Assembly: GCF_002797675.1 (NCBI RefSeq)
Contig: NZ_PGEX01000001.1
Location: forward strand, 2,418,001 to 2,482,000
Source: Hallerella succinigenes
GTDB taxonomy: Bacteria; Fibrobacterota; Fibrobacteria; Fibrobacterales; Fibrobacteraceae
Direction of reading: 5' to 3'
Length of the DNA stretch: 64,000 bases
A program made the translations under genes and the position numbers. Below, one piece after another: positions 57,819-61,511 of this stretch (positions within the stretch are counted from its first letter, which is position 1; the number at the start of each line of letters is the position of its first letter). The notes below the pieces were generated by a model that saw nothing but the letters and a program-made list of their open reading frames with translations, had not been told where the DNA came from and ran no database searches.

Positions 57819-58796
57819 TTATTTCGGCATGCGTGTGCGCGCGATTTCGTAAAGGCCAAGAGACAGAGCCACGGATGCGTTATAAGACTGGGCTTCCGGA
57901 TTCATTGGAATGCGAAGAATGTCGGTGCACTGCTTGCCGATAAACGGCGGAAGGCCGACGTCTTCACCGCCCACGGCGAGAACGATCTGGTCGCCGAACT
58001 TGTAATCGACGAGAGAAATTTCTGTGGCCGCATCCAGTCCAAGAACCTGGTAACCGGCCTGCTTGAGTTCGCCGATGGTCGCTTCGAGATTGTCCGGACG
58101 GCAGATGCGGAGCTTGTCCACAGCGCCGGTAGAAGCTCGGGTGACAGTCGGAGTCAGGCCGCACATTCCCTTCGACGGCATCAAGAAAATGTCGGCGCCG
58201 AGTCCGAGGGAAGAACGGATGCATGCGCCGAGGTTTCTCGGGTCTTCGATGTTTGTTGCGACGACGACGAGCTTGCGTTCGCCTTTTTCCTTGGCGTCGA
58301 AGAATTCGGACTTGACCTCCTCCCACTTGAGAAGTTCCTTTTCGTTGCAGAGGGCGACAACGCCCTGATTTGGAACGGCATAGGAATCCAGAATGCGGGC
58401 TTCCACCTGCTGCACGTGAATGCGATTCTTCTTCGCCATCTTCTGCAAGTTGTAAAGCTTCGGATTTCCGGAATTGTGACGGAAGAGTACGCGGTGTACC
58501 TTCATCGGGGAATTCGTCAAAAGTTCAGTGACTTCGCGGATGCCGCCGACAGCTGTCTGCGGAGCGCTTTCGGCATCGCCCAAGGCAACGTTCACCTGGT
58601 TTGGACGCGGACGGGCATCTTCGCCTAGAAAACGGCGCGGTGCGCGGTCACGGCGAAAATCGCGGTCTCCACGGCTCAAGTCACGATCGCGGTTGTAGCG
58701 CGGAGAACGTCTCTGCGAAAAGGCCGGCCTTTCCGAGAAAGACGGTTCTTCTTCGTTGTTTTCGCGGCCTGCGTTAAACGGTTGCTTCTTCCACAT
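57819..58796 (-). CDS. SpoU/TrmH-family rRNA or tRNA 2'-O-methyltransferase
   Basis: A 325-aa protein. Residues 1-75 are Arg/Asp-rich and probably disordered (RDRDLSRGDRDFRRDR). A substrate-binding domain follows (VHRVLFRHNSGNPKLYNLQ), and the SPOUT knot has motif 1 NIEDPRNLGACIRSS, motif 2 VLAVGGEDVGLP and motif 3 IPMNPEAQSYNASVALSLGLYE. RlmB is the closest well-known type. Its start overlaps the end of the tatB fusion gene by 23 bases with its own AAAGGAG site. Confidence 0.9.
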   Translation of the reverse strand: MWKKQPFNAGRENNEEEPSFSERPAFSQRRSPRYNRDRDLSRGDRDFRRDRAPRRFLGEDARPRPNQVNVALGDAESAPQTAVGGIREVTELLTNSPMKVHRVLFRHNSGNPKLYNLQKMAKKNRIHVQQVEARILDSYAVPNQGVVALCNEKELLKWEEVKSEFFDAKEKGERKLVVVATNIEDPRNLGACIRSSLGLGADIFLMPSKGMCGLTPTVTRASTGAVDKLRICRPDNLEATIGELKQAGYQVLGLDAATEISLVDYKFGDQIVLAVGGEDVGLPPFIGKQCTDILRIPMNPEAQSYNASVALSLGLYEIARTRMPK

Positions 58797-59478
58797 GGGG
58801 GTTCTCCTTTTCCGGATCGTTTTTCGGGGCTACAATATAGTTCATTGGAACGTCATGTGGCTTGAGGGTTAAAGGCTTTTCGGATACTTGAGTGCTAAAT
58901 GCGACGCCACATTTGATTGCCTGCGGATTCTTTTCGAGAAAACGGTCGTAATAGCCTTTGCCGTGACCGTGGCGACCTCCGTCCCAAGAAAATTGAACGC
59001 CTGGGGTCAGCACGAACGGAATTTCGCCGCGGTAAATCGGCAGTTCTTTTTTAGGCTCGTGAACGTGAAAGCGTCCTTCGACAAGGTCCTTTTCCAAATC
59101 GTGAATTTCGACAAAGTCCATGAGACCGCCGTCGTATGTAATCGGAAGCAGCAAGCGGCCTTCCTTGGCGAGTTCCTGAAGGATCGGGCGAATGTCAGGC
59201 TCATCCGGGAGAGGATAAAAGGCGGCGACTTTGGCGGCGGCTTTGTAAGGCTCAAAACGGCGAATCGCTTGAACGATCCAGGCGCTTTCTTTTTCTTTGC
59301 GGGACGGATTTTTTTGCGTTTCCAAGAGCTCATCCTCCAGGTCAAACTTCAAGCGGTAAAGGCGACCCTTCCAATATTTGAAAGTCGCAACGGCTTTTCC
59401 CAAATCCTTGGGCTTAAACAGGAGCAGTGCGAGCAAGAATAAAAGCCCGAATTCCGAAAATCCGATTTCTGCGTTCAT
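58774..59478 (-). CDS. TatB-like N-terminus fused to 5-formyltetrahydrofolate cyclo-ligase
   Basis: A 234-aa fusion. Residues 1-52 are TatB-like: GFSEF, a hydrophobic helix (LLFLLALLLF), the hinge KPKDLGKAV and an amphipathic helix (KYWKGRLYRLKFDLEDELLE). Residues about 58-218 form 5-formyl-THF cyclo-ligase (EC 6.3.3.2): KVAAFYPLPDEPDIRPIL, GVQFSWDGGRHGHGKGYYDRFL and GVAFSTQ. The start at 59478 overlaps the tatC stop (ATGA), with tatA upstream, so it takes the tatB position in the tat operon. The reading frame is continuous across the junction with no stop. An assembly error is unlikely, since both halves share one frame, but has not been tested. Confidence 0.88.
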   Translation of the reverse strand: MNAEIGFSEFGLLFLLALLLFKPKDLGKAVATFKYWKGRLYRLKFDLEDELLETQKNPSRKEKESAWIVQAIRRFEPYKAAAKVAAFYPLPDEPDIRPILQELAKEGRLLLPITYDGGLMDFVEIHDLEKDLVEGRFHVHEPKKELPIYRGEIPFVLTPGVQFSWDGGRHGHGKGYYDRFLEKNPQAIKCGVAFSTQVSEKPLTLKPHDVPMNYIVAPKNDPEKENPHVEEATV

Positions 59479-60170
59479 CGCGCTCTCCAGGCCATCCGGT
59501 AAGTGATTAGACTGATCCCGTATAAAATAATCATCGGAATCGCAACCCAAAAAAGTGACATCAGATCGGGTGGCGTTACAATCGCAGAAAACAGCGCAGA
59601 AAGAAAAATCACCAAGCGAAAATGCTTCAGTAGAAAATCCTTGCCCGCGATGCCCGTTCTGCCGAGGAATGCCGCCGCTACGGGCATCTGGAAAATCAGC
59701 GCGAACAGCACTTCAAACCGGAACAGAAACGAGACATAAGAAGTCTGTGACCACATCTGCATTGCGGAATTCGAATAGCCGGCGAGAAAGGAAAAAAGAA
59801 ATGGAATTGCAAAAAAATAGGCAAAGGCGGCGCCTGCAAAAAAGAGGAGGCTCGCCGTGAAAACCGAAAACAGAAAAGTCTTTTTCCGCTCAGTCGGAAC
59901 GGCTGGGGCGCAAAAGGCGTAAATGTGGTAAAGAAAAATCGGCGATGTCGCAAGAGCCGCGATCATACAGGCGACGAGCAGGTTCACCGAAACGCCTTCC
60001 GCGGGAGAAAGGTTCACCAGCGTCACCAGGTTTGTACCGAATAACGGAAGCTCTACAAATCGCCAAAAGAAAGGAAATTGGTAAAAGGCGATACCTGCGA
60101 CAACAGCAAAGCAAGCGAGACAGGTCAAAAGTCTCGAACGGAGTTCCTGAAAATGCTCAGAGAGCTCCAT
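59475..60170 (-). CDS. tatC: Twin-arginine translocase subunit TatC
   Basis: A 231-aa TatC with six hydrophobic segments. ELSEHFQELRSRLL is the conserved N-terminal motif. SPAEGVSVNLLVA is the first conserved loop, then TERKKTFLF and the late ALFSAIVTPPDLMSLFWVAIPM. It binds RR signal peptides and, with TatA and TatB, exports folded proteins. ATG 60170 has AAGG nine bases upstream, overlapping the tatA stop. It is followed by the tatB fusion with an ATGA overlap. Confidence 0.95.
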   Translation of the reverse strand: MELSEHFQELRSRLLTCLACFAVVAGIAFYQFPFFWRFVELPLFGTNLVTLVNLSPAEGVSVNLLVACMIAALATSPIFLYHIYAFCAPAVPTERKKTFLFSVFTASLLFFAGAAFAYFFAIPFLFSFLAGYSNSAMQMWSQTSYVSFLFRFEVLFALIFQMPVAAAFLGRTGIAGKDFLLKHFRLVIFLSALFSAIVTPPDLMSLFWVAIPMIILYGISLITYRMAWRAR

Positions 60171-60181
60171 CGGCAAAAGCC

Positions 60182-60370
60182 TTAAGCGTTACTGTTGGAA
60201 TCATTCTTGGAGTCTTCCGAAGACTTTTCGTCTTCGATATCTTTTTTCGCCTTGCGGAATTCGCGAAGTGCCTTGCCCAAAGAGGCTCCGAGTTCCGGAA
60301 TGCGGCGGGCTCCTAAAAGGAGAATTGCCAAGAAAACCAACAACAAAAGTTCTGGAATTCCAATGTTCAT
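60182..60370 (-). CDS. tatA: Twin-arginine translocase subunit TatA
   Basis: A 62-aa protein: transmembrane helix IPELLLLVFLAILLLG, hinge RRIPELG and amphipathic helix KALREFRKAKKDIEDE, then a polar tail rich in Ser/Asp/Asn. It forms the pore-like oligomer of the Tat pathway. It follows the RNase D gene by seven bases and precedes tatC by 11. Confidence 0.95.
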   Translation of the reverse strand: MNIGIPELLLLVFLAILLLGARRIPELGASLGKALREFRKAKKDIEDEKSSEDSKNDSNSNA

Positions 60371-60377
60371 GAGAACC

Positions 60378-61511
60378 TCAATGGATTAATTTGTTGTGCA
60401 AAATGCCATTCCAAATGGTGCGCTGCCAGTTCAAGAAATGCGCCGCGTCATAACGGTCATCCCAGGTCAAACCGATAGGGGAGGCTAGGGCGATCAACTG
60501 CGCCCGATTAGCGAGCATAGCCCCGTCCAAATGGAGCTCTGCGGCGCGTTCGTTTCGCCATTCCTTCAAAGTGTCGATGAGCTCGCCGTCCGGACTGATC
60601 AGCGGAGGAGGAACCTTCTGATTTTCTTCGGGCCATTCGGATTCGGGAACCTGCATGGCGTTTTGCAGCATCGTCAAAAAGTCGGTGCGACGTTCCCCAA
60701 AAAAGTTTCGGGGGAGTTTTGGCAGGTAATCTTCTCGAAGTTCCGGGAAGGAATAGGTAGCGGATCGGACTATGGCGAGCATCAGTTCGTTGCCAAAAAC
60801 CTTATACGGCGGACGGTCCAGCTTTTCGGCTTCCTTTTCGCGCCATTCCCAAATGTGCTTCAGGATGTTCAAAGACTTGGATTGCAAACGGAACGAACCC
60901 GAAATGCGCCAACGTTCCGGATCTTCTTCCTTTTTTTGACGCGCTTTTTCAATCAGTTCGTTGCAGGTCTCGATCATCCAGGTGAATTTTCCTTGGGCTT
61001 TGAGCTGTTCGCCAAGCTTTGCACAGAGTTCATGCAAATAGAAGGTATCGTGAATCGCGTATTCGCACATGTCAGGCGGTAACGGACGTGTTGTCCAGTC
61101 GGACTTCTGATTGTCCTTGGGAAGATCGATGCCAAAATATTTGCGGACAAGACTTGCGTAACCCAGACCTTCTTCGCCGAGGAATTTTGCGGCGATCATC
61201 GTATCGAAAACGTGCTTGGGAGAGAACCGGTAATGATGCCAGAGCATGCGCAAGTCGTAATCGGCGCCGTGCAGAATCAAACTGTTCATGGCGCGTGTTT
61301 TAAAGATCGGGGTAATGTCAATCGGAGCAAACGGATCGACAATGTAATGATGCTCACCGATGGTAATCTGTATTAAGCAGAGACGTACCGTATAATGGTA
61401 CATCGAATCGGCTTCCGTGTCGACCGCTGCGATTTCGTAGAGAGACAAGTCCTCGATAAGCTTATCGAGAGACTCTTGGTCTGCTACGAGAATGTACGGA
61501 TCGTTTACCAT
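60378..61511 (-). CDS. RNase D-like 3'-5' exonuclease
   Basis: A 377-aa protein with the DEDDy nuclease domain: AAVDTEADSMYHY, ILHGADYDLRML and EYAIHDTFYLHEL (Tyr/Asp). A HRDC-like helical domain follows (SKSLNILKHIWEWREKEAEKLDRPPYKVFGN), and a second HRDC-like region lies near the end. RNase D trims tRNA 3' ends and other small RNAs. It starts 20 bases after the M23 peptidase stop and is cotranscribed with tatA. Confidence 0.92.
   Translation of the reverse strand: MVNDPYILVADQESLDKLIEDLSLYEIAAVDTEADSMYHYTVRLCLIQITIGEHHYIVDPFAPIDITPIFKTRAMNSLILHGADYDLRMLWHHYRFSPKHVFDTMIAAKFLGEEGLGYASLVRKYFGIDLPKDNQKSDWTTRPLPPDMCEYAIHDTFYLHELCAKLGEQLKAQGKFTWMIETCNELIEKARQKKEEDPERWRISGSFRLQSKSLNILKHIWEWREKEAEKLDRPPYKVFGNELMLAIVRSATYSFPELREDYLPKLPRNFFGERRTDFLTMLQNAMQVPESEWPEENQKVPPPLISPDGELIDTLKEWRNERAAELHLDGAMLANRAQLIALASPIGLTWDDRYDAAHFLNWQRTIWNGILHNKLIH

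Follow-up and report, generated by a model that had tools for sequence, protein, structure and literature searches.

Organization of the tat locus

The window, the whole stretch of 64,000 nucleotides of Hallerella succinigenes DNA that was analyzed, carries on its minus strand an operon in which tatA and tatC are followed by a single reading frame that joins a TatB-like N-terminus to a 5-formyltetrahydrofolate cyclo-ligase (MTHFS). The genes and the features of the fusion are as follows.

60378–61511, minus strand: RNase D-like 3'-5' exonuclease (DNA_pol_A_exo1 and HRDC), upstream; a customary neighbor in Fibrobacteraceae
60182–60367, minus strand: tatA (PF02416, 61.2 bits)
59475–60173, minus strand: tatC (PF00902, 160.7 bits)
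58774–59478, minus strand: TatB-MTHFS fusion gene (P0001), 234 amino acids in a single frame
57819–58796, minus strand: SpoU-type rRNA methyltransferase, downstream; its start overlaps the 3' end of the fusion gene
59419–59460, minus strand: TatB-like transmembrane helix, residues 7–20 in the AlphaFold2 model, after the N-terminal GFSE (TIGR01410 match, residues 4–53)
59452–59454, minus strand: Glu9, corresponding to the TatC-binding Glu8 of E. coli TatB (E in 43/43 fusions)
59347–59412, minus strand: TatB-like amphipathic helix, residues 23–44 (AlphaFold2 model; hhalign to residues 1–52 of other fusions, E=7e-15)
59323–59338, minus strand: possible internal ribosome-binding site and TTG start at codon 52 (GGAGG, spacing 8), in the four closest genomes only
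58828–59319, minus strand: cyclo-ligase domain, residues 54–217 (TIGR02727, 114.3 bits; VIA-align Z 21.2 with 2jcb)
58939–58977, minus strand: GRHGHGKGYYDRF, the glycine-rich MTHFS nucleotide-binding motif, residues 168–180 (invariant R, G, G, Y, D and F columns in the alignment)

The fusion gene (59478–58774) translates without a stop over 234 amino acids, and its ATG overlaps the stop codon of tatC as ATGA, in the order tatA, tatC, fusion. The coordinates agree with the initial annotation, which had placed the fusion in the tatB slot behind tatA and tatC with this overlap. The single frame joining a TatB-like N-terminus to a cyclo-ligase is equally borne out, the same join being found in 43 loci. 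A stop or frameshift near residue 55 was looked for and none was found, and the same single frame recurs throughout the phylum. Past the SpoU-type gene, the operon contains one more methyltransferase gene, and repeats near the fusion locus are at chance level only. The source genome consists of one contig of 3,127,022 bases and is 100% complete.

The TatB-like domain

The N-terminus of the window protein falls below the curated cut-offs for TatB. Residues 4–53 match the TIGR01410 tatB model weakly (18.9–22.4 bits; cut-off 56.5), and the match to PF02416 is 11.1 bits, under the cut-off of 21. Orthologues of the fusion pass PF02416, and the best of them reaches E=2e-12 with TIGR01410, still below the cut-off of that model. 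In 11 more distantly related genomes, one open frame holds both the cyclo-ligase and a PF02416 match above cut-off. Judged from such profile matches, both halves are unmistakable in one protein in the Chitinivibrionia-type members (tatB E=2e-12, MTHFS E=2e-39). The L085 fusion matches tatB over residues 4–61 (E=2e-12) and MTHFS over residues 70–251, covering all 182 model positions (E=2e-39), and the L053 and L037 fusions resemble it, with tatB and full-length MTHFS matches. TatA-type models score equal to the TatB model in the L033 and L046 fusions. An hhalign comparison of the first 54 residues of the window family with the other fusions (residues 1–52) gives E=7e-15, versus 6e-7 with TatA, which supports recognition of the window N-terminus as TatB through its orthologues.

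A separate tatB gene in the same genome would have counted against this reading. Profile searches with TIGR01410 and PF02416 across the complete 3.13 Mb genome found none: TIGR01410 matches only tatA and the fusion frame, and PF02416 is above cut-off only in tatA. The assignment as TatB thus relies on homology to the better-preserved orthologues, on a tatA gene distinct from the fusion and on the fact that the genome offers no further candidate.

A glutamate occupies the position of E. coli TatB Glu8 in 43/43 fusions. In E. coli, the Glu8Ala exchange abolishes TatB-TatC binding and transport (PMC5201420), and in cryo-EM structures from 2026 the Glu8 side chain bonds TatC Thr208 (PMC13323110). 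The window tatA also carries Glu at the equivalent position, so that this residue alone does not separate TatB from TatA here. The median dN/dS within the genus of the window is 0.05 for the TatB half versus 0.13 for the enzyme; the N-terminus is therefore held more tightly than the enzyme, and purifying selection on the TatB half is strong.

Compared with known TatB (TIGR01410; TatA_B_E, PF02416; E. coli (TatBC)3), the fusion likewise displays a GFSE motif, one transmembrane helix, a hinge and an amphipathic helix, adjoins tatA and tatC, and is the sole tatB candidate of its genome. It differs in the operon order, tatA-tatC-tatB, in the score of the window copy under the curated cut-offs, and in its C-terminus, which is an enzyme, whereas known TatB ends in a short mobile tail. 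The E. coli TatBC structures show nothing ordered beyond TatB residue 63, the tail being mobile (PMC13323110), which leaves room for an appended domain with no obvious clash.

The cyclo-ligase domain

Residues 54–217 match the MTHFS_bact equivalog TIGR02727 with 114.3 bits (cut-off 84.9), and the motif R-x-G-x-G-x-G-Y-Y-D is present as RHGHGKGYYD (residues 169–178). PF01812 has one match in the complete genome, the fusion frame itself, and there is no second cyclo-ligase. The description of this half as a full cyclo-ligase with its ATP-site motif stands for the motif and the equivalog score, but not for completeness, as the first 10 of the 182 model positions are missing. These positions usually form an N-terminal K-x-x-[LI]-R helix, with a presumed role in binding the ATP phosphates. 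The helix appears to be absent in Fibrobacteraceae and is kept in most other members of the phylum; K72 and R76 of the helix are invariant in the Chitinivibrionia-type fusions, and in the window the site is missing or replaced by K44-F-D-L-E48.

The fusion shares with known MTHFS families and structures (TIGR02727, PF01812; 3hy6, 2jcb, 1sou) an equivalog-level score, the fold (Z about 20) and the GYYD motif, and differs from them in bearing a membrane anchor. The Fibrobacteraceae fusions apparently differ further in lacking the K-x-x-[LI]-R helix, at whose place the end of the amphipathic helix sits in a low-confidence part of the model. In one genome of the sample (G125:C105:744-1168), the cyclo-ligase appears as two adjoining matches with overlapping positions, as from a frameshift or assembly error.

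Predicted structure

Structure prediction gave the arrangement expected from the initial annotation, with a transmembrane helix, a hinge and an amphipathic helix followed by an MTHFS core. The AlphaFold2 model of the window protein (mean pLDDT 80) consists of helices 7–20 and 23–44 and a confident MTHFS core, much of it with pLDDT >90, connected by a joint (residues 37–54) with values <50. The model of the Chitinivibrionales fusion L094 has helices 7–21 and 26–54 followed by a flexible linker; its MTHFS is complete and retains a first helix of its own (residues 71–87). The amphipathic helix is of moderate to low confidence in both models.

The window model superimposes by VIA-align to 2jcb with Z 21.2 (185 residues, 2.6 Å) and to human MTHFS (3hy6) with Z 20.5 (183 residues, 3.2 Å). 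The aligned range to MTHFS structures begins at residues 33–36 of the window model, so that the end of the TatB amphipathic helix lies at the usual position of the first MTHFS helix. The model may suggest, at this low-confidence joint, that one helix is shared by the TatB and MTHFS halves.

Distribution in Fibrobacterota

The phylum was searched in a sample of 168 Fibrobacterota genomes, and 60 further loci were annotated with the proteins of the window. A single frame holds the fusion in each of 43 loci, of which 11 belong to the family of the window and 32 lie outside it; by hand count, these cover 25/41 genera and 11/14 families of the phylum. Full-length relatives are present in 6/6 genomes of the genus of the window, the other five at 68–96% identity, and also in two other genera of the family, g5 and g10. 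The fusion had been asked about in close relatives, where its absence would have weighed against it; it is present in all six genomes of the genus. The fusion is thus ancient and phylum-wide in Fibrobacterota, and a recent fusion limited to the genus is rejected by the 25/41 genera of the phylum search.

The fusion usually follows tatC in the order tatA-tatC-fusion; L060 has no adjoining tatC, and L033 and L045 have no adjoining tatA. A scan of 84,980 named species with three phylum-specific peptide patterns yielded 21 confirmed relatives, all in Fibrobacterota (Chitinivibrionales, Chitinispirillaceae, Fibrobacter sp. bins and Fibrimonas). Of these, 17/21 match over both halves and 4/21, of the Fibrimonas type, over only about the first 50 residues.

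Origin and decay of the fusion

The MTHFS tree follows families, with the TatB-fused state in both halves of the phylum and the anchor-only (98*) and RNase D-fused (99*) forms each in a single clade, a topology consistent with one ancestral fusion and later losses. The fusion would have a single origin, at the root of Fibrobacterota or close to it, from a tatA-tatC-tatB-mthfs gene order, with vertical inheritance thereafter. Certain lineages would later have shed tatA and tatC, and kept, trimmed or lost the anchor.

In the family of the window, a full tat operon with the fusion is found in g1, g5 and g10. The cyclo-ligase of g6, a genus with many species (L016-L032, L086, L087), retains a degenerate hydrophobic N-terminus with an FGSS hinge and no Glu, at a locus without tatA and tatC; where present, tatA and tatC of g6 lie elsewhere in the genome, and genome G102 of this genus, which is 100% complete, encodes the anchored cyclo-ligase and neither TatA nor TatC. 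By hhalign, the g6 anchor matches TatB weakly (E=2e-5, probability 77%), and it is likely homologous to TatB, given the same locus and the FGSS hinge. The window fusion and the g6 protein share the hydrophobic N-terminus, the hinge and a locus between the rnd and SpoU-type genes; unlike the window, g6 has lost the TatC-binding Glu and tatA and tatC at the locus. In g7, g9 and g11, the cyclo-ligase has no anchor. In g2 and g4 (L061-L064), it follows the RNase D-like exonuclease in frame, fused to its C-terminus, apparently after loss of the intervening tat genes. As lineages without tatA and tatC still have the enzyme, the enzyme can do without Tat.

The cyclo-ligases of L069:1929-4283 and L070:252-2630 (family f2) are extended at the C-terminus by about 600 residues that include a hydrophobic stretch; no further Pfam match was found in L069. 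At L073 (G063:C5), a tatA-tatC pair of g6 adjoins a CobW/COG0523-like GTPase gene, recognized by eye from a GYLGAGKTTLL motif.

TatC partners and Tat substrates

The equivalent of TatC Thr208 is retained in 41/42 partner TatCs. In the Fibrobacteraceae fused operons (window tatC, 59475–60173, and relatives), the equivalent of Gln215 is Leu or Met in 11/11, and 6/11 have Arg or Asn at the equivalent of the signal-peptide residue Glu103, unlike most TatC elsewhere in the phylum. A search of the window genome for Tat signal peptides, with two signal family models and a strict RRxF[FL]K DNA pattern, gave no convincing N-terminal signal. Given the drift of TatC and the lack of recognized signals, Tat in Fibrobacteraceae may be degenerate, weakened or specialized.

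The phylum also contains TatAC-only systems, which likewise have a tatA-tatC pair and differ in having no attached cyclo-ligase. In g21 and g28 (L077-L081), no cyclo-ligase adjoins the pair. Two genomes of the genus of the window, G141 (L071) and G140 (L072), have a second tatA-tatC pair beside a DUF362-like gene with a twin-arginine signal, whose product starts MDRRDFLK or MDRREFLK; this second pair is absent from the genome of the window.

Function of the fusion protein

The gene product is probably a membrane protein with two functions, in which MTHFS stands in for the mobile cytoplasmic C-terminus of a TatB subunit; most likely it is the TatB component of a TatABC translocon and carries the cyclo-ligase as a tethered domain. 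The N-terminal and amphipathic helices would bind TatC in the TatBC receptor and take part in Tat transport. The enzyme would hang on the cytoplasmic side, with at most three copies to a (TatBC)3 core, assuming the same stoichiometry as in E. coli, and, as the equivalog score, fold and motif suggest, would convert 5-formyl-THF to 5,10-methenyl-THF with ATP. The architecture points to a metabolic enzyme that probably resides at the cytoplasmic face of a protein export machine.

An N-terminus that now serves as a mere anchor for the cyclo-ligase, the TatB role being lost or unimportant in Fibrobacteraceae and TatA alone serving TatC, is the less likely reading, although it has some weight. The g6 anchor persists without tatA and tatC at the locus and with its Glu lost, even in G102 without TatA or TatC; no Tat signals were recognized in the genome of the window; and the partner TatC drifts at Q215 and E103. 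Against it, tatA, tatC and the fusion remain together in the genus of the window with an invariant Glu9, the TatB half shows a lower dN/dS than the enzyme (0.05 vs 0.13), and g7, g9 and g11 have dropped the anchor and kept the enzyme, which therefore does not need anchoring. We consider it very unlikely that the halves are joined in DNA and work apart, through cleavage or through an internal start that also gives soluble enzyme. The low pLDDT of linker 37–54 would suit such a separation, as would the GGAGG-8nt-TTG site that the window shares with its three closest relatives; a possible start at TTG-52 would yield a soluble cyclo-ligase. The site is the only one of its kind in about 2,450 codons of neighboring genes, barring one at the 3' end of the fusion that adjoins the start of the downstream gene. 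Neither L007 nor L008 has the site, nor do the other genera of Fibrobacteraceae that were examined, and a conserved cleavage site was not observed; as the start site is conserved only in the four closest genomes, an internal start is rejected as a general mechanism. A sequencing or assembly artefact, such as a lost stop or a frameshift, has a negligible probability and is rejected: nothing but the oddity of the fusion speaks for it, whereas 43 independent loci, including a one-contig genome, have the same join, and substitutions across the joint are of the coding type, with synonymous changes far exceeding replacements.

For a TatB with a tethered cyclo-ligase, the simplest reading is a fusion that was tolerated at the TatB C-terminus and that ensures co-expression of the enzyme and its location at the membrane; a benefit of the tether is conjectural. 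Tat or the anchor has been lost repeatedly, which indicates that the two functions are separable and makes a tolerated fusion the simplest view. True functional coupling is possible, and nothing in the data demands it. A translocon coupled to one-carbon metabolism, with export and folate status regulating each other, is given little credence; the cyclo-ligase at the TatBC receptor would then sense the folate or ATP state, or perform a folate-linked step for folded cargo.

Significance for Fibrobacterota

Both halves belong to known families. The initial annotation knew of no described system of this kind, and we likewise found no description of the fusion, its phylum-wide conservation or the decay series in the open literature (5.4 million papers), outside of which most subscription journals lie. 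As the TatB part falls short of the curated cut-off for TatB, annotation pipelines will label these proteins as cyclo-ligase only and score Fibrobacterota as TatAC-only, where the missing TatB of a phylum would be supplied by the fusion. The series of full TatB fusion, trimmed fusion, anchor without Tat, free enzyme and RNase D fusion offers a natural evolutionary progression in which to examine the use of the tether. The fusion also bears on the purpose of the TatB C-terminus, and implies that an entire phylum can maintain a metabolic enzyme as part of a receptor subunit in a core export machine.
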